Origin: Peptococcaceae bacterium CEB3
Lineage (GTDB): Bacteria > Bacillota > Desulfitobacteriia > Desulfitobacteriales > Desulfitobacteriaceae
Assembly (NCBI GenBank): GCA_001029295.1
Contig: LDXJ01000063.1
Location: forward strand, 434,001-498,000
DNA length: 64,000 nt
Direction of reading: 5' to 3'
Part shown: positions 3-12,854 of the stretch, one piece after another
Layout: each line of letters opens with the position of its first letter
Numbering within the stretch: the stretch's first letter is position 1
Program-made: the position numbers and the translations under genes
Notes under the pieces: model-generated
Told to the model about the DNA's origin: nothing
Database searches by the model: none
The model's input: only the letters and a program-made list of their open reading frames with translations

Positions 3-869
3 TATACGGTCATGGCTCAGATTGCGGCGGAAGTCCTGGATATGCCCTTGGAGAAAGTGAAGGTCATTTGGGAAAACGATACGGACAAGAATCCCTACGA
101 CTGGCAAACCGTGGCTTCAAAATATACTTTCATGGGAGGGAATGCCGTTATTCGCTGCGCCCAGGATCTTTTGCGCCAGATGAAAGAAGTGGCGGCTTGT
201 GTACTGCGCAGTCCCTCAGAAGAATTGACACACGGAGATGAGAAGATTTATCACGTTCAGCACCACGATAAAGCTATCGCTTATAAGGACCTGGCTTTGG
301 GCTATACCTATGAAGACGGAACGGGAATCGGGGGTCCGCTGATTGGCAGGGGAGTCTATATGGCAGAGGGCTTAACGAACCTGAATCCGGAAACAGGCCA
401 AGGGCTGCCCGCGTTGGATTGGACCTACGGGGCGCACGGGGCTGAGATCGAAATCGACCTGGAGAGCGGAGAGATCCATGTGTTAAAAATTGCTTCAGCG
501 TTCGACGTCGGACGGGTGATCAATCGCAAGCTGGCTGCGGGACAAGTCGTGGGCGGGGTGATCCAGGGGTTGGGTTCGGCCCTGATCGGAGGGTACAAAT
601 ACAGCCCGGAAGGGCGCTTGCTGAATCCGTCTTTTACCGACAATAAGATTCCCACTGCCAAAGATATTCCGGATCGCATCGTGCCGATCTTCATCGAGAA
701 TCCTCAGCTTGACGGCCCCTTTGGGGCTCGCGGAGTGGGGGAGCATCCCATGATCTCCGTGCCTTCCGTCTTGGCGAACGCGGTTTATGATGCCCTGGGA
801 ATTAATTTCTATGAGCTTCCCCTCTCTCCGGAGCGAATTGCCCTTGCCCTGGCACGCCGGAAGGAGTGA
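3..869 (+). CDS. Xanthine dehydrogenase-family molybdopterin-binding subunit (5' truncated by window)
   Basis: This is the C-terminal 288 residues of the large molybdopterin subunit of a xanthine dehydrogenase/aldehyde oxidase-family hydroxylase. The reading frame is already open at base 3, so the start lies before the window. Visible family features are YGAHGAEIEIDLESGEI, the DVGRVINRKLAAGQVVGG stretch, and GARGVGEHP near visible residue 241, whose Glu is the family's catalytic base. Such enzymes hydroxylate purines or other N-heterocycles with Fe-S and FAD subunits, which would lie upstream. Its position before an oxamate/carbamoyl-phosphate cluster and an NCS2 permease suggests a purine substrate, but the substrate cannot be read from this part. 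Confidence 0.9.
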   Translation, partial: YTVMAQIAAEVLDMPLEKVKVIWENDTDKNPYDWQTVASKYTFMGGNAVIRCAQDLLRQMKEVAACVLRSPSEELTHGDEKIYHVQHHDKAIAYKDLALGYTYEDGTGIGGPLIGRGVYMAEGLTNLNPETGQGLPALDWTYGAHGAEIEIDLESGEIHVLKIASAFDVGRVINRKLAAGQVVGGVIQGLGSALIGGYKYSPEGRLLNPSFTDNKIPTAKDIPDRIVPIFIENPQLDGPFGARGVGEHPMISVPSVLANAVYDALGINFYELPLSPERIALALARRKE

Positions 870-2226: not shown

Positions 2227-3828
2227 ATGAAAGAGCAAGTCATCGTTCAAGCGAATCGTTACGCGGATTCCGTTACTTTGATGCTAGTTTCCCAGAGAGT
2301 TCAACAGCTGCCTGGGATTGAAGCGGCCTTAGTGGGCATGGGCAGCCCATTGAACCTGGACGTGCTGCAAACTCTGGATTTTCAGGCAGAGATCAGTGCC
2401 GGCCCCAATGATTTGATCATTGCTTTGCGCGGAAGAGATGACGAAGCCGTCCAGAACGCCTTGGATCAGATGGAGGCTCTGATGCGGGCGCAGGGAAGTT
2501 CCGCTTCCGGTCCAGGGAAAGAGCGGCCCAAATCATTGGTTCAGGCTTTGGCCAAGCAACAGAGCAATTTGGCATTGATCTCCGTCCCGGGAGTTTATGC
2601 GGCCAGAGAGGCCCGCAGGGCTCTGGAACAAGATCTTCATGTGATGTTGTTCAGTGACAATGTTTCCCTGGCGGAAGAAGTTGAGTTGAAGAAGCTGGCG
2701 CACAGCCGGGAACTTTTGCTCATGGGACCTGACTGCGGTACCGCAATCCTGAACGGGGTGCCGCTGGCCTTTGCTAATGTGGTGCGCCGGGGTGTCATTG
2801 GCCTGGTGGCTGCTTCGGGAACCGGAGCGCAAGAGGTCAGCGTTCAGATTGACCGGATGGGTCAAGGGATCTCCCAAGTGATCGGGACCGGTGGGCGCGA
2901 TCTGCATGAGGCCGTGGGCGGAATCATGATGTTGGATTCTATCGAAGCGTTGCGACAGGATCCGGAGACCACAGTCATCGTGGTCGTCTCCAAACCCGCG
3001 GCCCCGGCCATTGCGGCTAAAGTCTTCGAGGCTTTGTCAAAGTGCGGAAAACCCTCTGTGCTCTGTGTGATCGGGTCGAACGGAGGGATCCGGGGGAAGA
3101 CTGAGGTGACGGCTCAGGTGGCAATTGCCCATAGCCTGCTGGAAACGGCTCAGAAGGCAGTGCGGTTGGCCGGGGGAGTACAGATTCCCCAAAAGCCCGC
3201 CGATCCGGCGGAAATTTCCGGAATCGCCGCGACCTTGCAGCCTGAGCAAAAATACGTGCGCGGCCTTTTTTCCGGAGGGACGCTTTGTGATGAAGCGATG
3301 GAAATACTGACCGAGAAATTGGGGCTCATCTATTCCTATGGCCCTCTTGATCCGGCGGGCCAGTTGCTCGACCCGAACAAATCCTGCCAAAATACCGTTC
3401 TGGATCTGGGTGATGATTTCTTTACCGTCGGTCGGCCCCATCCGATGATCGATTTGACCCTGCGCAAACAACGGATCAAAGAAGAAGCCGGGGATCCTGA
3501 AGTTGCGGTCATCCTCCTGGACGTGGTTTTGGGATATGGTGCACACCCGGATCCGGCGAGCGAGTTGGTGTCCGTGCTAGCGGAGGCGAAAGCAGAAGCA
3601 GAAGCAGAAACGAAGGTGAAAACGGAGCGGGGGAGAGAATCTGAACCGCACAAGAACGGTGCCGTCTTTGTCGCCTATGTCTGCGGCACGGCCGGGGATC
3701 CCCAAGATTACAACAAGCAGGTCAAGGCTCTTCGAGAAGCGGGTGTCAGAGTCTTCGCTTCCAACGTCGAAGCGGCGGAGTTTACAGCAGGGATATTAGA
3801 GGCGGCACGGGGAGGTGGACCACGATGA
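2227..3828 (+). CDS. allF: FdrA family protein, oxamate carbamoyltransferase subunit AllF-like
   Basis: 533 residues. FdrA proteins share the Rossmann/flavodoxin-like fold of the succinyl-CoA synthetase alpha subunit; here the MGPDCGTAILNGVPLAF stretch begins near residue 166 and AASGTGAQEVS near 197. FdrA was renamed AllF in E. coli as part of oxamate carbamoyltransferase, which makes carbamoyl phosphate from oxalurate. The gene overlaps the next gene by 4 bp (ATGA), indicating translational coupling. A charged low-complexity insert with AEAEAE repeats lies near residues 450-475, before the last domain, and looks like a local repeat expansion. Confidence 0.85.
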   Translation: MKEQVIVQANRYADSVTLMLVSQRVQQLPGIEAALVGMGSPLNLDVLQTLDFQAEISAGPNDLIIALRGRDDEAVQNALDQMEALMRAQGSSASGPGKERPKSLVQALAKQQSNLALISVPGVYAAREARRALEQDLHVMLFSDNVSLAEEVELKKLAHSRELLLMGPDCGTAILNGVPLAFANVVRRGVIGLVAASGTGAQEVSVQIDRMGQGISQVIGTGGRDLHEAVGGIMMLDSIEALRQDPETTVIVVVSKPAAPAIAAKVFEALSKCGKPSVLCVIGSNGGIRGKTEVTAQVAIAHSLLETAQKAVRLAGGVQIPQKPADPAEISGIAATLQPEQKYVRGLFSGGTLCDEAMEILTEKLGLIYSYGPLDPAGQLLDPNKSCQNTVLDLGDDFFTVGRPHPMIDLTLRKQRIKEEAGDPEVAVILLDVVLGYGAHPDPASELVSVLAEAKAEAEAETKVKTERGRESEPHKNGAVFVAYVCGTAGDPQDYNKQVKALREAGVRVFASNVEAAEFTAGILEAARGGGPR

Positions 3829-5234
3829 GCATCCGGGATTTGTTTGTGACCGAGCTGGCTGTGATCAACCTTGGGGTTCCGTCTTTTTATGAGGATCTTT
3901 TACGCCAGGGGCAGCCTGTGATTCAAGTCGATTGGAAGCCTCCGGCCGGCGGAAATCAGGAAATGGTCGCAGCCTTGGAAAAATTGGAGACCGTACGGGA
4001 AAAAATTGAGGCGGGAAATCGGGAGGCTTTTCAGCGCTTGAGTGAAGCCCATCCCTATTTAGAGGGCATCGGAACGGCCCGTGATCTTATCCCGGGGCTG
4101 GGGGAACGCATGTTGTTGCATGCCGGACCGCCCATTTCCTGGGAACATATGAGCGGACCGGTCCGGGGTGCGATCATCGGAGCTATTCTTTATGAGAGCT
4201 GGGCTCAGTCGCCGCAAGATGCGGAGGAACTGGCCGCCTCCGGGGGGATTGCCTTCAGCCCCGCCCATGAGCACAATGCCGTCGGTCCGATGGCCGGCAT
4301 CATCTCTCCGTCCATGCCTGTGTTTATCATCCATAATCGCACCCATGGCAATTATGCTTACTGTACCCTGAATGAAGGTTTGGGTAAGGTTTTGCGTTTT
4401 GGAGCATTTGGCCCTGATGTTCTGGAGCGGCTGAAATGGATGGCAGAAGAGTTGGCTCCGGCTTTGAAAAAAGCCCTTCAACTCTCAGACGGGATTGATC
4501 TTAAGAGCTTGATGGCCCAAATGCTGCACATGGGAGATGAAGGACACAACCGGAATAAAGCAGGAACATCTTTGTTTTACAGGATCGTCGCCCCTCTGCT
4601 GCTGAAGACGGACCTTGCTCCCAAAACGGTACGGCGGTGTTTGGAGTTTATCGACAGCAATGACCACTTTTTCTTGAATCTTTCCATGCCCGCCTGCAAG
4701 GCGATGCTCGACGCGGCAGTCGGTGTGGAATACAGCACCCTGGTCACGACGATGACCCGGAATGGGACGGATTTTGGCCTGCGGGTCGCGGGAACGGGAA
4801 ATCACTGGTTTACTGCTCCGGCCAACTATGTAGAAGGACTTCTCTTTCCCGGGTTTACGCCGCAAGATGCCAATCCGGATCTGGGAGACAGCGCGATTAC
4901 GGAAACATGCGGCCTGGGAGGGTTTGCGATGGCTGCGGCCCCGGCTATTGTCCAATTTGTGGGCGGGACGGCGTCCATGGCCTTGGAGTTCAGTAATTTG
5001 ATGTATCAGATAACTTACGGTGAAAATCCCGTCTTCACGATTCCGGCTTTGAATTTCCGGGGTACGCCGACGGGAATTGATGTCCGGCAAGTGGTTGAAC
5101 TGGGCTTGCTGCCGGTGATCAATACCGGTATTGCCCACCGCGAGGCCGGGATTGGCCAGGTCGGAGCGGGTTTGGTCAGGCCTCCCATGGCCTGTTTTGA
5201 AAAAGCCTTATCTGCTTTGGCGGAAAGTATTTGA
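3825..5234 (+). CDS. allG: DUF1116 (YlbE) family protein, oxamate carbamoyltransferase subunit AllG-like
   Basis: 469 residues, ATG overlapping the TGA of the FdrA-like gene. The protein is a full-length DUF1116 member with the family's conserved glycine-rich and His-rich segments, for example FSPAHEHNAVGPMAGI near residue 144 and ETCGLGGFAMAAAPAIVQF near 360. In E. coli the DUF1116 protein YlbE is AllG, needed with AllF and AllH for oxamate carbamoyltransferase. Tight coupling to allF supports the shared complex. Individual catalytic residues are not assigned here. Confidence 0.85.
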   Translation: MSIRDLFVTELAVINLGVPSFYEDLLRQGQPVIQVDWKPPAGGNQEMVAALEKLETVREKIEAGNREAFQRLSEAHPYLEGIGTARDLIPGLGERMLLHAGPPISWEHMSGPVRGAIIGAILYESWAQSPQDAEELAASGGIAFSPAHEHNAVGPMAGIISPSMPVFIIHNRTHGNYAYCTLNEGLGKVLRFGAFGPDVLERLKWMAEELAPALKKALQLSDGIDLKSLMAQMLHMGDEGHNRNKAGTSLFYRIVAPLLLKTDLAPKTVRRCLEFIDSNDHFFLNLSMPACKAMLDAAVGVEYSTLVTTMTRNGTDFGLRVAGTGNHWFTAPANYVEGLLFPGFTPQDANPDLGDSAITETCGLGGFAMAAAPAIVQFVGGTASMALEFSNLMYQITYGENPVFTIPALNFRGTPTGIDVRQVVELGLLPVINTGIAHREAGIGQVGAGLVRPPMACFEKALSALAESI

Positions 5235-5427: not shown

Positions 5428-6186
5428 ATGTATGACCTGACGCAGAAACTGAGTCATCTGACCCCGCCTTGGCCGACGTATGAACCTCTGCAAATCAAGT
5501 TCTTCAAACGCCTCAGTTCCAATGGCGCCAACGGACAAGTGATCACGACCTCTAACCATGTGGGCACTCATTTGGACGGATCGCTCCATTTCTGTACGCA
5601 TGGCCGGGATATTGCGGCCATTCCCCTGGAGGAATTAATTGGGGAAGCCGTGGTCGTGGACTTGAGTGACATTGCCGAGGATTACGGAATTTACACATCC
5701 CAAGACATTATGAAGAGAGTGGAGGTGAAAAAAGGAGATATCCTCCTCATTAACACAGGCTATCACAAGTATGGCTGGGACCAGCCCGAGGCTGACGAAG
5801 TACGTTATATGGTGAAGCATCCCGGCCCCACGAAGGAATTTTCGGCCTGGTGCCGGCTAATGGAATTCAAATGGATCGGAGTGGACTGCGGTTCCGCGGA
5901 TCATCCGATGAATACGAAAATCCGAGAATGGGCACCGCGCCAGGCTGCGGAATGTGAAGCTTACTTTCAGCAGAAATACGGCAAGTCTCTGGATGACATT
6001 TTCCCGGCGCAGGATTATCAGCTTATGCACGTCGATCTCTTCCCATACAACATCGTCCATGCCGAGAATTTAGGAGGAGAAATCGATAAGGTGTTAAACA
6101 AACGATTGATCGCGGGTTGCTACCCGTGGCGTTTTGAAGGCGGAGAGTCTTCCATCTGTCGGATCGTCGCTTATGACGAAAAATAA
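5428..6186 (+). CDS. Cyclase family metal-dependent hydrolase
   Basis: 252 residues of the cyclase/kynurenine formamidase superfamily. The metal-binding signature appears as SNHVGTHLDGSLHF near residues 38-51, close to the usual HxGTHxDxPxH with Ser in place of Pro, and a second His-containing segment MHVDLFPYNIVHAENLGG occurs near the C terminus. Family members hydrolyse cyclic or formyl amides using Mn or Zn. Its place between the AllG-like and carbamate kinase genes suggests an amide-hydrolysing step in ureide or oxamate breakdown, which is inference. The annotated ATG has no good ribosome site; an AAAGGAG at 5385 sits 6 bases before an in-frame ATC at 5398 that would add ten residues. Confidence 0.8.
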   Translation: MYDLTQKLSHLTPPWPTYEPLQIKFFKRLSSNGANGQVITTSNHVGTHLDGSLHFCTHGRDIAAIPLEELIGEAVVVDLSDIAEDYGIYTSQDIMKRVEVKKGDILLINTGYHKYGWDQPEADEVRYMVKHPGPTKEFSAWCRLMEFKWIGVDCGSADHPMNTKIREWAPRQAAECEAYFQQKYGKSLDDIFPAQDYQLMHVDLFPYNIVHAENLGGEIDKVLNKRLIAGCYPWRFEGGESSICRIVAYDEK

Positions 6187-7129
6187 ATCAGGTCAGACTT
6201 TGGTTTTGGCCTTAGGTGGCAATGCGATTACAAGAGAAGGACAGAAAGGGACTTTCGCTGAGCAGCTGCGAAATATTGAAGCGAGCTGCCGCCATATTAC
6301 CGGATTAGCCTTTGCGGGGCAGCGTATGGTTATCACCCACGGGAATGGACCGCAAGTTGGAAGCTTGCTGATCAAAAACGAGTTGGCCAAGGATGTCGTT
6401 CCTCCCATGCCCCTGGATGTCTGCGGTTCCAATACCCAGGGTTCGATCGGATACGCCATTGTGCAGACGCTGCAAAATATGCTGAGTCAAGCGGGAAATC
6501 CGCGGGAAATGGCGGCCGTCATCACCCGGACACTGGTGGATCGGGCGGACCCGGCGTTCGAGAATCCCACCAAGCCGGTGGGCCCGTTCTTCACGCAAGC
6601 ACAAGCGGAGGAACTAGTCCGGCTTCACGCCTACCAGATGAGGGAAGACAGCGGAAGAGGCTGGCGGCGAGTGGTTCCCTCGCCGCGTCCGCTGGCTATC
6701 CTGGAGAGAACCGTGATTCAAAGGCTTGTGGACAATGATGTCATCGTGGTGGCCGTTGGGGGCGGCGGCATACCGGTGATCGATGAGGGGGGGAGATATA
6801 GCGGGATCGAGGCCGTGATCGACAAGGATCTGGCGGCTCAAAGGTTGGCTCAGGATATTAAGGCAGACGTTTTCGCGATTTTGACAGGAGTGCGCAAGGT
6901 CTATCTGGACTACAGGAAACCGGCTCAAAAGGATCTGGATGTCCTGCGCGTTTTAGAGGCCAGGGAATATTTGGCTCAGGGACAATTCCCGGCCGGAAGT
7001 ATGGGGCCCAAAATCGAGGCGGCTGTGCATTTCGTCGAACAGAGTGGCAACCCGGCGGTGATCACTGATTTCGAGCATGTTGAGGCGGCTCTAAAGGGGC
7101 AGGACGGAACAAGGATTATCCCTGATTAG
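6173..7129 (+). CDS. allK: Carbamate kinase, catabolic (AllK/ArcC-like)
   Basis: 318 residues from ATG 6173, which overlaps the cyclase gene by 14 bp; this start gives the usual carbamate kinase length of about 310-315. Amino-acid kinase features are LVLALGGNAI at the N terminus, THGNGPQVG near residue 55, VVAVGGGGIPVI near residue 195, and ATDF-like AVITDFEHVEAAL at the end. The enzyme converts carbamoyl phosphate and ADP to ATP, CO2 and ammonia in the cytoplasm. Together with the AllFGH-like proteins it would yield ATP from allantoin-derived oxalurate. It may also serve other carbamoyl phosphate sources. Confidence 0.9.
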   Translation: MTKNKSGQTLVLALGGNAITREGQKGTFAEQLRNIEASCRHITGLAFAGQRMVITHGNGPQVGSLLIKNELAKDVVPPMPLDVCGSNTQGSIGYAIVQTLQNMLSQAGNPREMAAVITRTLVDRADPAFENPTKPVGPFFTQAQAEELVRLHAYQMREDSGRGWRRVVPSPRPLAILERTVIQRLVDNDVIVVAVGGGGIPVIDEGGRYSGIEAVIDKDLAAQRLAQDIKADVFAILTGVRKVYLDYRKPAQKDLDVLRVLEAREYLAQGQFPAGSMGPKIEAAVHFVEQSGNPAVITDFEHVEAALKGQDGTRIIPD

Positions 7130-7164: not shown

Positions 7165-7848
7165 ATGGCAGTACTGGACAAAATGGAAGCTCAACTGCGA
7201 CCGGTGGAAACCCTAATGGTTCCCTATCCCGCGAAGTACATCACCCAGGCTTCAGGTGAAAAGTTGGTGGTTCATCAATTGACCCGGGAGGATGTTCCCC
7301 ACTTGCTCAAAGCGATCCAGCCTTTGACCACGGTGGAAAAGGATTTTTACGATGTGGTGGGGTGCCGGGTGGTGTCTGAACTCGTGGGCTGGATGCGCTA
7401 CCGGGTAAAAGACGAGTACTGCCTGGTGGGGACTGTGAACGGTGAGATCGTGGGGATGGTGAATGGACGGATGCTGACGGACAAAATAGGCATGTCCTAT
7501 CACACCCTGGCGATCCGGCAGGGTTTGCGCTTGGGAGCCCAACTGTTTGCGGCGAAAATGGAATACCATATGGATTTCCTTAAACAGGATGAAGTCTGGG
7601 TCGTGGCGGAAAGTCCCAACGGCTTTAAACGCTGGATGATCGAATACGAACTCGAACCGCGTTTTGAACAATGGCATGAACTGGGGGGAGTTCCCACCTA
7701 TGTCTTGACCCGCAAGCTTTGGGAAAAACACAAAGCGGCCAAATGCGGCGGACGCCGGCCGGTGCCGGAGGAACTCCTGGCCGTGGCGAAACAAATGACC
7801 CTGCCGTCAATATACGGGCAGATCCCGGGTTACAAGAGAGGAGAATAA
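7165..7848 (+). CDS. GNAT-like N-acetyltransferase-fold protein
   Basis: 227 residues from ATG 7165; AGGAGA at 7151 is 8 bases upstream, whereas the GTG at 7159 is too close to it. The segment VGTVNGEIVGMVNGR followed by RQGLRLGAQLFAAKM resembles strand 4 and the acetyl-CoA loop (motif A) of GNAT enzymes, and ESPNGFKRWMIEYELEPR resembles motif B. The substrate is unknown. It ends 3 bp before the thiolase-like gene and lies in the same transcription direction, so it probably belongs to the same operon as that gene and the zinc-ribbon protein. Confidence 0.6.
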   Translation: MAVLDKMEAQLRPVETLMVPYPAKYITQASGEKLVVHQLTREDVPHLLKAIQPLTTVEKDFYDVVGCRVVSELVGWMRYRVKDEYCLVGTVNGEIVGMVNGRMLTDKIGMSYHTLAIRQGLRLGAQLFAAKMEYHMDFLKQDEVWVVAESPNGFKRWMIEYELEPRFEQWHELGGVPTYVLTRKLWEKHKAAKCGGRRPVPEELLAVAKQMTLPSIYGQIPGYKRGE

Positions 7849-7851
7849 GGA

Positions 7852-9045
7852 TTGCGAGAAGTAGGAATTGTCGGGGTCGGGCATCCGCCTTTCGGTAAGT
7901 ACGAAGGTTCTCTGATGGCTATGCTTTGTGAAGCGGCCGTGGCAGCCTTAGACGACGCGGGCCTCAAGACCGGTGCGGGGCACGGAGTGGATCAGGTTCT
8001 CGTTTCCAGCATGGGGGCTTCGCAGGTGAACCGGCAGACCGGAGTTGCTTCCGCGTTGGTTGATACCTTGAATTTACGGCCGGCGATGGCGGAAACGGTG
8101 GAAAACGGTCCGGCCTCCGGGGCTTCGGCGGTCAAACTGGGATATATGGCCATTGTCAGCGGCATGTGTGATGTGGTGCTCGTGGTCGGCGGGGAGAGGA
8201 TGAGGGTTCTGAGCGGTTGGGAGGCGACAGATTTCGTGGCGACCATGCTTCACCCCGAGGCGGAGTATGCGTACGGCCTGACCCTGCCCTCCTTTGCCGG
8301 GATGTTCACCAGGCTGATTATGGCCAAGTACGGAGTGACCGAACGCGATTTGGCCATGGTCTCAGTCAAGAACCATCAAAATGCTATGTTTAACCCTGCG
8401 GCTCATATCCAATTAGTGCCTGACCTGGAGGCGATCACGGAAGACGAAGACGCCCTGACTATCAACCCTTATGTCGCCGAGCCCCTGCATCTTTACGATA
8501 CCTGCCCGGTTTCGGACGGAGCGGCGGCGGTCGTGCTGTGTGCCCTGGATGTGAAAGAACGCTTTGCCAAGCGGCCGGTTAAGATTGCTGGGATCGGTCA
8601 GGCGACGGATACGCATGTCGTGGCCGAGCGGGAAGTCCCTACGGATCTTTTTGCCGTTCGCCGGGCAGCGGAGCGGGCTTACGCCATGGCGGGGCTTGGG
8701 CCTCAGGATATCGATGTGGCGGAGCTGCACGATGCTTTCACGATCTTGGAGATAGTCGAAGCGGAAGAAGTGGGCTTTTTCCCGCGCGGGGAAGGTCACC
8801 TGGCCGTGAGGCGGGGAGAAACGCGAATCGGCGGCAGGATTCCGATCAATACGTCCGGCGGCCTGAAGGCCAAAGGTCATCCCTTGGGTGCCACGGGTGT
8901 GTCGCAAATCATCGAACTGGTCAGGCAGCTGCGGGGAGAAGCCGACGGGCGTCAGGTCAAAGATGCCCAAGCGGGGCTAGCCGTTAATTTCGGCGGATTT
9001 GGCAATAATGTGGTGGCAACGATCTTGACCAGGGAGGAGGAATAA
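7852..9045 (+). CDS. Thiolase-like protein lacking the nucleophilic Cys
   Basis: 397 residues from a TTG start preceded by AGGAGAATAAGG. It is related to SCP-x/archaeal thiolases: the region ETVENGPASGASAVKLG near residue 83 corresponds to the NxxCASG motif of thiolases but has Pro where the acyl-accepting Cys normally sits. GHPLGATGVSQ near residue 343 keeps the conserved His, and the C-terminal Cys motif is replaced by NFGGFGNN. Thiolases form or cleave C-C bonds on CoA thioesters; without Cys this protein may instead bind a CoA ester or act as a scaffold. It is followed one base later by a zinc-ribbon/OB-fold protein, the usual partner of this family. Confidence 0.85.
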   Translation: MREVGIVGVGHPPFGKYEGSLMAMLCEAAVAALDDAGLKTGAGHGVDQVLVSSMGASQVNRQTGVASALVDTLNLRPAMAETVENGPASGASAVKLGYMAIVSGMCDVVLVVGGERMRVLSGWEATDFVATMLHPEAEYAYGLTLPSFAGMFTRLIMAKYGVTERDLAMVSVKNHQNAMFNPAAHIQLVPDLEAITEDEDALTINPYVAEPLHLYDTCPVSDGAAAVVLCALDVKERFAKRPVKIAGIGQATDTHVVAEREVPTDLFAVRRAAERAYAMAGLGPQDIDVAELHDAFTILEIVEAEEVGFFPRGEGHLAVRRGETRIGGRIPINTSGGLKAKGHPLGATGVSQIIELVRQLRGEADGRQVKDAQAGLAVNFGGFGNNVVATILTREEE

Positions 9046-9046
9046 G

Positions 9047-9391
9047 ATGGAACGGGAAATGCAGGCTTATCAATGTACCCAGTGCGGGGAACTCCATCAT
9101 CCTCTCCACTATGTCTGCCGTAAATGCGGAGGCCGTGACTTTAAAGAAGTTCCCTTGCGCGGGGAGGCTGCGCTTCTGACCTGGACAAAAGTCTATAATC
9201 TGCCGGAAGGGTATATGAGACCGTCCCTGGGCTTCTGTATCGTGGAATTCGAAAACGGCCTGAGAGTGGCCGGGCAGCTTGAGGTGGATCGACCTATCTT
9301 CGGGATGAAAGTGCGAGCTGTGGTTGATGTGGTCCGGGAAGGGGTTGGCGAAGATTACTACGGTTTCATCTTCAAGCCCGCGCAAGAGTGA
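9047..9391 (+). CDS. Zn-ribbon OB-fold (DUF35) protein, thiolase partner
   Basis: 114 residues. Two CxxC pairs (CTQC near residue 8 and CRKC near 24) form an N-terminal zinc ribbon, followed by a beta-rich OB-fold stretch containing LLTWTKVYNLPEGYMRPSLG. This is the DUF35 architecture found beside SCP-x-type thiolases; in archaea a DUF35 protein bridges acetoacetyl-CoA thiolase and HMG-CoA synthase and binds CoA. The gene starts one base after the thiolase-like stop, so the two are almost certainly co-translated. Confidence 0.88.
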   Translation: MEREMQAYQCTQCGELHHPLHYVCRKCGGRDFKEVPLRGEAALLTWTKVYNLPEGYMRPSLGFCIVEFENGLRVAGQLEVDRPIFGMKVRAVVDVVREGVGEDYYGFIFKPAQE

Positions 9392-9556
9392 CTGATGGCC
9401 CGGATGCTCTGTTTGCCCGGTGGGACCAAGGAAATAAACCAATTTATAGGGGGGTATGCCTATGAGGGTCTGAGTATGGTGCACTGCCGCCAAGGGGAGG
9501 ACAGCAGGTGTTGTGAGCAGGAAGGAACCCAAGTGATTTTTCGAGGGGGTCTGGAA

Positions 9557-10828
9557 ATGCTGATGAAAAAGATTTATGACATTGAAGATGTCCCTCCGCT
9601 CAGTAAAGCGGTACCTTTATCTTTTCAACATGTTTTTGCTATGTTTGGGGCGACGATCCTGGTCCCGCTGCTTACGAAGCTGGACCCGTCCGTCACTTTG
9701 TTTGCCTCGGGGCTTGGTACTCTGCTTTTTCATTTAATTACCAGGGGAAAGGTCCCCGCCTATCTGGGATCCTCGTTTGCCTTTATCGCACCAATCATCG
9801 CGGCGTCCAAAGCCTATGGAGCCCAGGGAGCCTTTACGGGGATGATTGCTGCAGGTTTTATCTATCTGATCGTGTTTGGCATCATTGCTTTGGTGGGGTT
9901 GAATTGGATCGAAAGGGTCTTGCCCTCGATCGTCGTGGGCCCGGTCGTGATGATCATCGGCTTGAGTTTAACGCCCGTTGCGATTTCGGAAGCCAGCAAG
10001 GGGTTGCTCACGGCCTTTGTCACAGCCGGAATTGTGGTGGTCGCCAATATCTTTGCCAAAGGTTTTCTCAAGATTATTCCGATTCTCCTTGGAACGGTGG
10101 GCGGATACCTTTTTGCTATTACCCAGGGGCAAGTGAACTTTCAGGCGATCAATCATGCGGCCTGGTTTGCTCTCCCCAACCTGACGATCGTTACGGGGCA
10201 TATGCCGGTATTGGCCTGGGGAGCGGTGAGCCTAATCGCGCCTATCGCCATTGCGACGATGGTTGAGGATGTCGGGCACCTCTTGGTGATAGGGGATACG
10301 GTGGGCCGTGATTTAATGCATAAGCCGGGTCTGCATAAAGTCCTACTGGCCAATGGGGTGGCGACGATGTTAGCGGGATTTTTAGGAGGGGTTCCCGAGA
10401 CGACCTACGGCGAGAATATCGGAGTTCTGGCGATCACGCGCGTTTTTAGTTCGCGGGTGATCCAAGGGGCGGCTGTCATTGCGATCCTCCTGAGCTTCAT
10501 TGAAAAAGTGGGTGCCGCCATCCAGACGATTCCGGAACCTGTTCTCGGCGGGATTACGATCATCCTCTACGGGATGATTGCCTCCGTCGGTCTGCGCAAC
10601 TTGGTGGAAAATAAAGTTAACCTGGCGAGCAACCGGAATCTGCTCATTGCTTCTATTATATTCACCCTGGGCGTGGGCGGAATCAATATTCCCATCGGAC
10701 ATTATTCTTTCCAAGGGGTAGGGCCGGCCGCGGTGATCGGGATTCTTCTTAATTTGGTCTTACCCAAGGAAAAAAGCGAGCCCGAAGAGGTGAAGACTTC
10801 GTCCGGATCGGGCGTTTCCGCGGATTAA
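9557..10828 (+). CDS. NCS2 family nucleobase (uracil/xanthine) permease
   Basis: 423 residues from ATG 9557, 8 bases after GAGGGGG. Multiple hydrophobic helices, the N-terminal SFQHVFAMFGATILVPLLT, and PVLGGITIILYGMIASVGLRNL near the C terminus mark the nucleobase-ascorbate transporter family (UraA/PbuX). VPETTYGENIGVLAITRVFS near residue 278 carries the conserved Glu used for substrate binding in this family. It is a cytoplasmic membrane proton symporter. Purine versus uracil cannot be separated by eye, but the upstream molybdenum hydroxylase and the PucR-type regulator next door favour a purine. The 165 bp before it contain no gene. Confidence 0.88.
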   Translation: MLMKKIYDIEDVPPLSKAVPLSFQHVFAMFGATILVPLLTKLDPSVTLFASGLGTLLFHLITRGKVPAYLGSSFAFIAPIIAASKAYGAQGAFTGMIAAGFIYLIVFGIIALVGLNWIERVLPSIVVGPVVMIIGLSLTPVAISEASKGLLTAFVTAGIVVVANIFAKGFLKIIPILLGTVGGYLFAITQGQVNFQAINHAAWFALPNLTIVTGHMPVLAWGAVSLIAPIAIATMVEDVGHLLVIGDTVGRDLMHKPGLHKVLLANGVATMLAGFLGGVPETTYGENIGVLAITRVFSSRVIQGAAVIAILLSFIEKVGAAIQTIPEPVLGGITIILYGMIASVGLRNLVENKVNLASNRNLLIASIIFTLGVGGINIPIGHYSFQGVGPAAVIGILLNLVLPKEKSEPEEVKTSSGSGVSAD

Positions 10829-11165: not shown

Positions 11166-12854
11166 ATGCTTAGGAAAAACGGTGTCAGTGTAGAAGATGT
11201 CCTCAGACTCGATTGCATGAAACAAGTTAAGGTGCTGGGCGGGCACGGCGGTCTGGAGAGGATCGTCACGAATGTCAACATCATGGAGGTTCCCGATATT
11301 TATAATTGGGTCAATTCCGGGGATCTCTTGTTGACGACGGCTTATTCCATTCATGACAATCCTGAGGCTTTGCTCTCCCTGATTCCGGAGTTGGTGAACC
11401 GCGAGCTGGCCGGCTTGGCTCTCAAACCGAAACGCTATCTCGGCCATGTTCCGCCGGAGATGATTGATCAGGCGAACGAGAGGAATTTTCCGCTTCTTGA
11501 GCTGCCCCCGGAAGTTTCTTTTGCCGCGATTTTGAATCCGATTTTGAGCGAAATCTTGCAGATGCATATAGATTTCTTTGAGAAATCGGAAAAGGCGCAC
11601 CGGCTTTTTATGGAAGTGATCTTGAAAGGCGGAGGTATTGCCGATATTGTCCGCAAATTAGCGGAAGTCATCGGCAACACGGTTTTGATCTACAATCAGA
11701 ATAATGAGGTTTTGGCCGGGCATTTCGTGAACTGGGATGCGGCTTCTTGGCAAGAGGCGGTCGAACGGGTTAAGACAGCGGAGGTTCAAGTCACGGATCC
11801 CTTGGATTCCGGGGTTCGCTACCGCATCTCCGCGACGGCCGCGGAGCCCGGTTTACGGGAATTCAGAACCCCTATCATTGTGCAGGGCCGGCTGAGCGGC
11901 TATCTTTCCATTTGGGACAACCAACACGCTTTAAAAGAGACGGATTTCATCTTTATCGACAGTGCGATGACGATTGCGGCCCTGGAGTTCATGAACCAGC
12001 GTTCGATGTTGGAAGTGGAAAGGCGCCACCGCAATGATTTCATCGGGGACCTCTTGCAGGAGGCCAAGGTGGAGGAAAAGAGCCTGAGGGAGAGGGCCCG
12101 CTACTTAGGCTGGAATCTCACTGGGGATTATGTGGCGTTGGTGACTGACATTGACAACTTTCTGGGGTATGCCACGCGGGGCCCTCAAGACGAGCAGGCT
12201 GTCCAAGAGGCCAAGGATTACTTGTTCAACCAGATCATGGAGGCGGTGCATAAGGACGAACCTTGTATCGCGGGAACGAAGAGCGATAGTATTATCCTGC
12301 TATTGTCCCATCCGCGCGCACTCGCTCGGGAGAAGCTCAGTGCCTACTTCCGGGCCCGAAGCGGGGAAATCTTCAGTTTTGTGAGCGAGAGGATTAAGGA
12401 GTTTACGATCTCGGTCGGGGTCGGCAGGTGTTATACGGGCATAGCTGGGTTACGCAAGAGTTACCGCGAAGCGCTGCAGGCCTTGAACGCGGGCAAAGCG
12501 CTGTTTGGCCGCAACCAATTGGTCTTTTTCGAGGAACTTGGCATCTACCGCTTGTTGCGGCAAATGCCGAATACGGAGGAGTTCGAGCTGTTCTATCAAG
12601 AGACTGTGGCTCCGCTGGATGTCCATGATCGTAAGTTTCACGGGGACCTGATCAAAACCTTGGAAGCTTTCTTCAAATATCACGGAAACCTGAAACAGGT
12701 TTCCCAGGCTTTGTTTATTCATTACAATACGGCCCTCTATCGGATTGAACAAATCCAAGAACTCACGGGTCTCAGCCTCAAGTCGGCGGAAAACCGGCTT
12801 AATTTGCAAATCGGCTTAAAGGTCCGAAGGATCTTGCATGAAAAGGAAAATTGA
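11166..12854 (+). CDS. PucR family transcriptional regulator
   Basis: 562 residues with the PucR layout: an N-terminal PucR domain (about residues 10-130, including LLLTTAYSIHDNPEALLSLI), a central GAF/GGDEF-like region (about 130-420), and a C-terminal HTH_30 domain (about 490-550, HGNLKQVSQALFIHYNTALY). B. subtilis PucR activates purine catabolism genes, and relatives respond to allantoin or other nitrogen compounds. The gene sits directly downstream of the molybdenum hydroxylase/oxamate/permease cluster and probably controls it. The ribosome site is weak (AAGGATAG). Confidence 0.88.
   Translation: MLRKNGVSVEDVLRLDCMKQVKVLGGHGGLERIVTNVNIMEVPDIYNWVNSGDLLLTTAYSIHDNPEALLSLIPELVNRELAGLALKPKRYLGHVPPEMIDQANERNFPLLELPPEVSFAAILNPILSEILQMHIDFFEKSEKAHRLFMEVILKGGGIADIVRKLAEVIGNTVLIYNQNNEVLAGHFVNWDAASWQEAVERVKTAEVQVTDPLDSGVRYRISATAAEPGLREFRTPIIVQGRLSGYLSIWDNQHALKETDFIFIDSAMTIAALEFMNQRSMLEVERRHRNDFIGDLLQEAKVEEKSLRERARYLGWNLTGDYVALVTDIDNFLGYATRGPQDEQAVQEAKDYLFNQIMEAVHKDEPCIAGTKSDSIILLLSHPRALAREKLSAYFRARSGEIFSFVSERIKEFTISVGVGRCYTGIAGLRKSYREALQALNAGKALFGRNQLVFFEELGIYRLLRQMPNTEEFELFYQETVAPLDVHDRKFHGDLIKTLEAFFKYHGNLKQVSQALFIHYNTALYRIEQIQELTGLSLKSAENRLNLQIGLKVRRILHEKEN

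Follow-up and report, generated by a model that had tools for sequence, protein, structure and literature searches.

A GNAT-fold, thiolase-like and DUF35 gene trio as a candidate for the last step of a proposed oxygen-independent oxidative uracil pathway

Introduction

What is a thiolase-like protein for when proline stands where the nucleophilic cysteine belongs? The question is raised by three genes of Peptococcaceae bacterium CEB3, in a stretch of 64,000 nucleotides (contig LDXJ01000063.1, positions 434,001 to 498,000) that we call the window and whose own numbering is used throughout. A gene for a GNAT-fold protein (7165–7848), a gene for a thiolase-like protein with a TTG start (7852–9045) and a gene for a DUF35 protein (ChsH2-type zinc ribbon plus OB fold; 9047–9391) follow each other on the forward strand, as do all genes of the window described below. 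The gaps are 3 bp and 1 bp, which agrees with the tight packing noted in an earlier, sequence-only reading of the locus. We see in this trio the likeliest candidate for the final step, otherwise unaccounted for, of what looks like an O2-independent oxidative route for uracil, a route that would end with a coenzyme A (CoA)-dependent complex made of the three proteins. The probability of this reading, the proposed reaction included, is roughly 0.4, a figure that blends its parts. The observations behind it are the genes present, their synteny and co-occurrence, the conserved residues and the folds.

The Thiolase-Like Protein

The thiolase-like protein matches Thiolase_N and Thiolase_C_1 well beyond the Pfam cut-offs, and its structural model has the thiolase fold; profile and fold alike place it in the thiolase superfamily. 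The best structural match is the archaeal acetoacetyl-CoA thiolase 6esq (Z 53.9, root-mean-square deviation (rmsd) 2.0, 379 aligned residues, 36% identity), and further matches are PhlC (Z 50.2), MucABC (Z 49.4), Ltp2 (Z 44.0) and Sal (Z 43.3).

Both a profile alignment to solved thiolases and a MAFFT alignment with the classical thiolase of another locus put Pro87, in the motif ENGPASG, in the column of the nucleophilic Cys (NxxCASG). The sequence-only reading had proposed this replacement, and both alignments confirm it. It had also remarked on the missing C-terminal Cys. N379 indeed occupies the column of the second (CxG) Cys, but the loss is unremarkable because archaeal and SCP2-type relatives that keep the nucleophile (7yvy, 6esq) have Asn there as well. 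The HDCF/NEAF motif reads HDAF (Ala295), so that neither of the two cysteines that could serve as acid/base is present. The GHPLGATG motif, with His343, is retained, as had been said.

We aligned the window protein with 80 relatives, each from a fetched locus. Position 85, Pro87, residues 293–296 (HDAF, including His293 and Ala295), His343 and N379 are identical in all 81 sequences. Pro at the nucleophile position is thus a trait of the whole family, and a sequencing error or a pseudogene at the Cys codon is ruled out. Since the replacement holds across at least ten phyla, chance does not account for it either. Classical thiolysis, which the earlier reading had doubted, is very unlikely.

That reading had called the protein Cys-less. 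The label fits the classical catalytic cysteines, but not Cys218, another residue common to all 81 sequences. In the alignment it takes the place of the Ser that classical thiolases have in the NASG loop. In those enzymes, this loop touches the pantetheine arm of CoA, and Cys218 is predicted to sit in the corresponding loop. As judged from the alignment, the protein lacks the classical catalytic cysteines, yet it is not devoid of a conserved one. No Cys escaped notice at the nucleophile position; Cys218 leaves the possibility of an active-site Cys elsewhere. A paralogous thiolase-like protein in the same genome (L002, G000:C61:301463-302563; about 33% identity) also misses the nucleophilic Cys (ESGGATGG) and has a Cys in the pantetheine loop.

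The Partner Proteins and Their Closest Known Systems

The GNAT-like protein gave no usable match in Pfam, NCBIfam or PDB sequences, and none in a search of plasmids. Its AlphaFold model (pLDDT 92) has a GNAT fold (VIA-align Z 14.2, rmsd 3.0, 163 aligned residues), and the fold matches listed are general GNATs. S111, H113 and T114 on beta-4, R122, S150 and H171 are invariant (74/74). R122 lies within the CoA pyrophosphate loop: by hand alignment, the Q/RxxGxG/A loop reads RQGLRLGA, and its middle Gly is the invariant Arg122. GNAT folds can decarboxylate malonyl-CoA using a His-Ser/Thr dyad (PMC3701320). On comparison of residues, the invariant S111/H113/T114 and S150/H171 could provide the equivalent of the dyad of malonyl-CoA decarboxylase (MCD) and CurA.

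The zinc-ribbon and OB domains of the DUF35 protein score slightly under the Pfam cut-offs (E 7e-5 and 3e-5). Cys10, Cys13, Cys24 and Cys27 are conserved, and the best PDB matches are DUF35 subunits, the nearest being those of the archaeal thiolase/HMG-CoA synthase complex and of BbsA. In known thiolase-DUF35 modules, a CoA ester is shared with a third enzyme: HMG-CoA synthase, PhlA or a MaoC hydratase (PMC6392133, PMC12329534).

The archaeal complex (6esq) is the closest of these systems, giving the best structural match to the thiolase-like protein and the best sequence match to the DUF35 protein. Its DUF35 subunit bridges the thiolase and a second CoA enzyme, an arrangement that the trio would resemble. 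However, the archaeal thiolase has the Cys (VEAACASG) and HDCF where the trio has Pro and HDAF, and the second enzyme is HMG-CoA synthase instead of a GNAT-fold protein. The second-best PDB sequence match (3e-69) of the thiolase-like protein is ST0096 of Sulfolobus tokodaii (4yzo), a protein of unknown function. It also lacks the nucleophilic Cys (NTSGSG), but has Ser rather than Pro at that position and HDMA instead of HDAF. The trio is a variant of the thiolase-DUF35 modules that is new in two respects: its active site has Pro and HDAF, and its third member has a GNAT fold.

Spread and Genomic Context

Of the 80 loci, 75 have the three genes side by side in an unchanged order, and the DUF35 gene lies at most 60 bp from the thiolase gene in 75 of 78. 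Its range covers at least ten phyla, including Bacillota, Actinomycetota, Spirochaetota, Verrucomicrobiota, Acidobacteriota, Bdellovibrionota, Bipolaricaulota, Gemmatimonadota, Eiseniibacteriota and Sumerlaeota. The order of the genes around the trio varies, the trio being downstream, upstream or divergent. This spread and the several gene orders rule out chance clustering inside one genus and support the trio as a conserved functional unit. The five thiolase genes without a GNAT neighbor come from genomes in which no GNAT gene was found, in a search that had no positive control but with a model that finds the gene elsewhere. Four of these thiolases group together in the tree (L042, L047, L048, L062) and one stands apart (L041), so the GNAT gene has probably been lost twice.

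What surrounds the trio is also recurrent. In the 75 loci with sufficient flanking sequence, homologs of the transcarbamylase subunits AllF/AllG lie within 10 kb in 48, a PF04199 cyclase gene is near in 50 and a molybdenum hydroxylase (Mo-hydroxylase) gene in 35. Where AllG is not near the trio, it is encoded elsewhere in the genome in 16 of 31 cases; this exceeds the class background (Fisher p=5e-6), although the backgrounds differ in taxonomy and the value is a rough guide. In all, about 64 of the 80 cases have AllG in the genome, either linked to the trio or at another place, and linkage occurs across all deep branches of the thiolase tree. Several of the unlinked AllG contigs (L113, L117, L119) have Xdh, AllF, AllG and cyclase genes grouped. 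In the class to which the window belongs, 6 of 82 genomes have the GNAT gene, 12 have AllG and 5 have both (Fisher p=1.6e-4). The neighborhood survey that the sequence-only reading had suggested shows that the trio co-occurs with allFGH-type genes.

In the window, the cluster begins with the C-terminal part of a Mo-hydroxylase large subunit that runs off the window (12–869; a complete homolog is at L011:428-2842). It is followed by genes for an AllH-like subunit (1144–2106; PF11392, 58 bits), an AllF/FdrA-like subunit (2227–3828; NF004760, 470 bits, cut-off 433) and an AllG-like transcarbamylase subunit (3825–5234; PF06545, E=4e-100), the three occurring together beside the trio. Next are a cyclase-family hydrolase predicted to open rings (5428–6186; PF04199 by Pfam) and a carbamate kinase of ArcC/AllK type (6173–7129; TIGR00746, 394 bits, cut-off 358). 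Beyond the trio lies an NCS2 permease gene of the UraA (uracil) type (9557–10828); homology starts near residue 57 of the open reading frame listed as 9395–10828.

A Probable Pyrimidine Setting

The base that this cluster handles is suggested by four kinds of evidence. First, the permease of the window gives 4e-95 against UraA but only about 4e-10 or weaker against the uric acid-xanthine permease UapA. Permeases of the two types differ by having Glu or Gln at a diagnostic position. The UraA-type Glu is present in 18 of 19 readable neighbor permeases, the remaining one (L024) having Gln.

Second, the Mo-hydroxylase departs from xanthine dehydrogenase, in which the final Glu of GGGFGGKE is the purine-binding residue. 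The large subunit of L011 has GGGFGGKA instead, and the nearest relative with a solved structure is 4-hydroxybenzoyl-CoA reductase. Other readable loci also have Ala in the Glu column, except for Gln in L012; the window copy ends before the motif. The purine-binding Glu is thus absent from the neighboring enzymes that can be read.

Third, no allantoinase scored above the NCBIfam cut-off in 16 trio genomes, while two control genomes do match.

Fourth, pyrimidine genes are present in several trio genomes, where they join or stand in for the same steps. One contig (L118, from the genome of trio locus L065) carries AllH, AllF and AllG, a relative of aldehyde:ferredoxin oxidoreductase, the cyclase and a uridine phosphorylase (292.6 bits, cut-off 280.3), and also a cytosine-deaminase-like protein that falls below its cut-off (421 bits against 438). 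In L068, uridine phosphorylase, cyclase, GNAT and thiolase genes share one contig. In L117 (genome of trio locus L078), a dihydropyrimidinase gene (537 bits, cut-off 393) lies beside AllHFG and Xdh, with no cyclase seen on this contig. By this genomic context, the trio probably belongs to a pyrimidine pathway.

In UBP18-like genomes (L118:9469-11370, L116, L068:2526-4445), the aldehyde:ferredoxin oxidoreductase relative adjoins the AllG and cyclase genes in the usual place of the Mo-hydroxylase. It may substitute for the latter in oxidizing the base.

AllFGH homologs are not by themselves a sign of purines, because Desulfosporosinus-like relatives carry them without the trio in a setting like that of Nit1C. 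In these relatives (L094–L097), AllFGH and carbamate kinase genes accompany GNAT, AIR-synthase-like, glycosyltransferase and FAD/Fe-S oxidase genes, and the cluster resembles the Nit1C nitrilase cluster.

The Proposed Pathway

From this context we infer the substrates, all the reactions and the formation of a complex as follows. The Mo-hydroxylase would oxidize uracil at C6 to barbiturate, and the cyclase would open barbiturate to ureidomalonate. Ring opening by PF04199 enzymes has known examples with cyclic amides (isatin hydrolase) and with cyclic 1,3-dicarbonyls (dihydrophloroglucinol cyclohydrolase, DPGC; PMC10470551). Since ureidomalonate is the homolog of oxalurate longer by one carbon, the AllFGH-like transcarbamylase would perform on it the phosphorolysis that E. 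coli AllFGH carries out on oxalurate (PMC11326118), giving malonamate and carbamoyl phosphate. The adjacent carbamate kinase would turn the carbamoyl phosphate into ATP. The likeness to the oxamic transcarbamylase operon of E. coli, allFGHK, thus extends to four neighbors of the trio and to the kind of reaction proposed, the phosphorolysis of an N-carbamoyl amide. However, the trio is missing from E. coli, which does have allantoin genes, whereas the trio locus has the Mo-hydroxylase, the cyclase and a uracil-type permease and no allantoinase.

Malonamate remains to be used. The recurrent families of the cluster include no amidase, acyl-CoA ligase or malonate decarboxylase; as three CoA-type folds are left, we propose the trio for this step: malonamate + CoA → acetyl-CoA + CO2 + NH3. 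Taken by itself, this specific reaction is tentative, the least secure part of the route, and has well under an even chance. The GNAT-fold and thiolase-like proteins would share one CoA chain by way of the DUF35 subunit. In the split that we favor, the GNAT-fold protein would exchange amide for thioester, yielding malonyl-CoA and NH3, and the thiolase-like protein would decarboxylate the malonyl thioester. Such thiolysis of malonamate by CoA would be a GNAT acyl transfer run backwards, and we slightly favor the GNAT-fold protein for the exchange because GNATs move acyl groups between amine and CoA. The thiolase-like subunit has retained both histidines of the enolate oxyanion hole but not the nucleophile. 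TbSLP, a thiolase-like protein without the catalytic Cys, has slow and weak malonyl-CoA decarboxylase activity (PMC12329534). The reverse split, with the GNAT-fold protein as decarboxylase and the thiolase-like protein as exchanger, is possible. The most specific version would have the GNAT-fold subunit thiolyze a primary amide, pulled by decarboxylation in the Pro-for-Cys thiolase through the shared DUF35 channel, and so complete the uracil pathway in at least ten phyla; in all these particulars it is unlikely to be right. Canonical malonyl-CoA decarboxylase (PF05292) had no match in 11 trio genomes, which is uninformative as the controls were matchless too.

If the proposal is true, it adds a way to break down pyrimidines oxidatively without O2 and to gain ATP by way of carbamoyl phosphate, present in Clostridia, Coriobacteria, Spirochaetes, Verrucomicrobia and others. 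It would account for AllFGH and xanthine-dehydrogenase homologs in the absence of purine genes; at present, such homologs are readily mistaken for genes of purine or ureide breakdown. Thiolase-DUF35 modules would gain a GNAT-fold partner, and there would be a testable function for a subfamily of thiolases in which Pro always stands in for the nucleophile. We found no paper on such a pathway in the open literature (barbiturase, ureidomalonate, malonamate, oxidative anaerobic pyrimidine breakdown).

Several points weigh against the uracil pathway and the role given to the trio in it. The substrates, products and complex of the trio are deduced from genes, and the specificities of the permease and the Mo-hydroxylase are predictions from their sequences. 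PucR regulators, a member of which is encoded nearby, are named after purine catabolism, and E. coli AllFGH is known for oxalurate only. Conversion of an amide to a thioester is uphill unless decarboxylation pulls it. CtSal, which is also thiolase-like but not thiolytic, shows no malonyl-CoA decarboxylase activity (PMC12329534), and the nucleophile may have moved to the invariant Cys218. The top structural matches listed for the GNAT model include neither MCD nor CurA, which excludes nothing. Five relatives have no GNAT gene at all. Finally, there are exceptional loci. Moorella stamsii (L012) has the trio and the cyclase with no AllG in the genome, next to a phloroglucinol-like gene set, and in the termite-gut Coriobacteriales L034 and L035 a nitrilase-like gene adjoins the trio, again with no AllG found in the genome. 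Together with the loci near a glutamate dehydrogenase gene (described below), they suggest that more than one route can lead to the substrate of the trio. This would suit a small common metabolite, but the reaction could also be something else.

Alternative Explanations

The rival that survives best, though rather improbable, is an aldolase or retro-aldolase acting on a small beta-hydroxyacyl-CoA, a CoA ester that the GNAT-fold protein would prepare or unload. It would make the trio a relative of the steroid side-chain aldolases Ltp2-ChsH2 and Sal-Shy, in which a nucleophile-less thiolase fold is bound to a DUF35 protein, the pairing putative here. All function-tested thiolase-DUF35 pairs without the nucleophilic Cys are aldolases (PMC12329534), and the fold of our protein matches both Ltp2 and Sal. 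It matches acyl-transferring thiolases (6esq, PhlC) better, however, and its identity to the aldolases is at most 28%. The Tyr base of these enzymes, in the motif YDHF/YDCY (PMC12329534), is His in HDAF in 81 of 81 sequences, and we reject membership in the Ltp2/Sal group on this ground. The partner hydratase is absent, and no hydratase, dehydrogenase or CoA ligase that could supply the beta-hydroxyacyl-CoA recurs in the cluster.

Transfer or removal of a C-acyl group on a cyclic 1,3-dicarbonyl, barbiturate itself, as by PhlACB and MucABC, is improbable to a greater degree. These systems also consist of a thiolase-like protein, a DUF35 protein and a third subunit; the rings on which their thiolase-DUF35 parts work are of the phloroglucinol and tetramic acid types, and the fold scores of about 50 are close. 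C5 of barbiturate is nucleophilic, and the trio of L012 adjoins genes resembling those of phloroglucinol breakdown. Against this, both systems need a catalytic Cys, which in PhlC is Cys88 (PMC6392133) and here is Pro, and their third subunit is KASIII-like, whereas the cluster has no KASIII- or PhlA-like partner.

The sequence-only reading had the trio handle a CoA ester or a carrier in the breakdown of purines or ureides (xanthine or allantoin). It could point to AllF, AllG, AllH, carbamate kinase, xanthine-dehydrogenase-like and PucR homologs around the trio. The UraA-type permease, the lost purine-binding Glu, the lack of an allantoinase match in the 16 genomes and the pyrimidine genes, all described above, lead us to reject this reading, to which only a small chance is left.

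That the trio regulates the pathway as a catalytically silent scaffold or CoA sensor might be suggested by the loss of the classical nucleophile and of the Gly replaced by R122, but it is very unlikely because residues H293, H343, D294 and C218 of the thiolase-like protein and S111, H113, T114, R122, S150 and H171 of the GNAT-fold protein are invariant across at least ten phyla, which argues for catalysis or tight ligand binding.

Other Features of Trio Loci

In the exceptional locus L012 (1–11999), the trio is accompanied by a distinct Mo-hydroxylase, a CoA-transferase, a canonical thiolase and the cyclase. A BKACE-like gene (3,5-dioxohexanoate-type) is also present, at 393 bits against a cut-off of 430. 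In L034, the nitrilase-like gene scores 232 bits, far below its cut-off, and in both L034 and L035 an acetate/monocarboxylate-type symporter and a PucR gene also lie beside the trio. In these two loci, a small nitrile or amide acid may be the start of a short route. The trio is near a glutamate dehydrogenase gene in L061, L065 and several loci of Bipolaricaulota.

In the window, a gene for a PucR-family regulator (11166–12854; PF07905) lies downstream of the permease gene. Between the Mo-hydroxylase and allH genes, a 14-bp tandem repeat is present in 15.6 copies (908–1125). The open frame of allH extends upstream through this repeat, which makes the true start of the gene uncertain, and automatic gene calls may lengthen allH wrongly.

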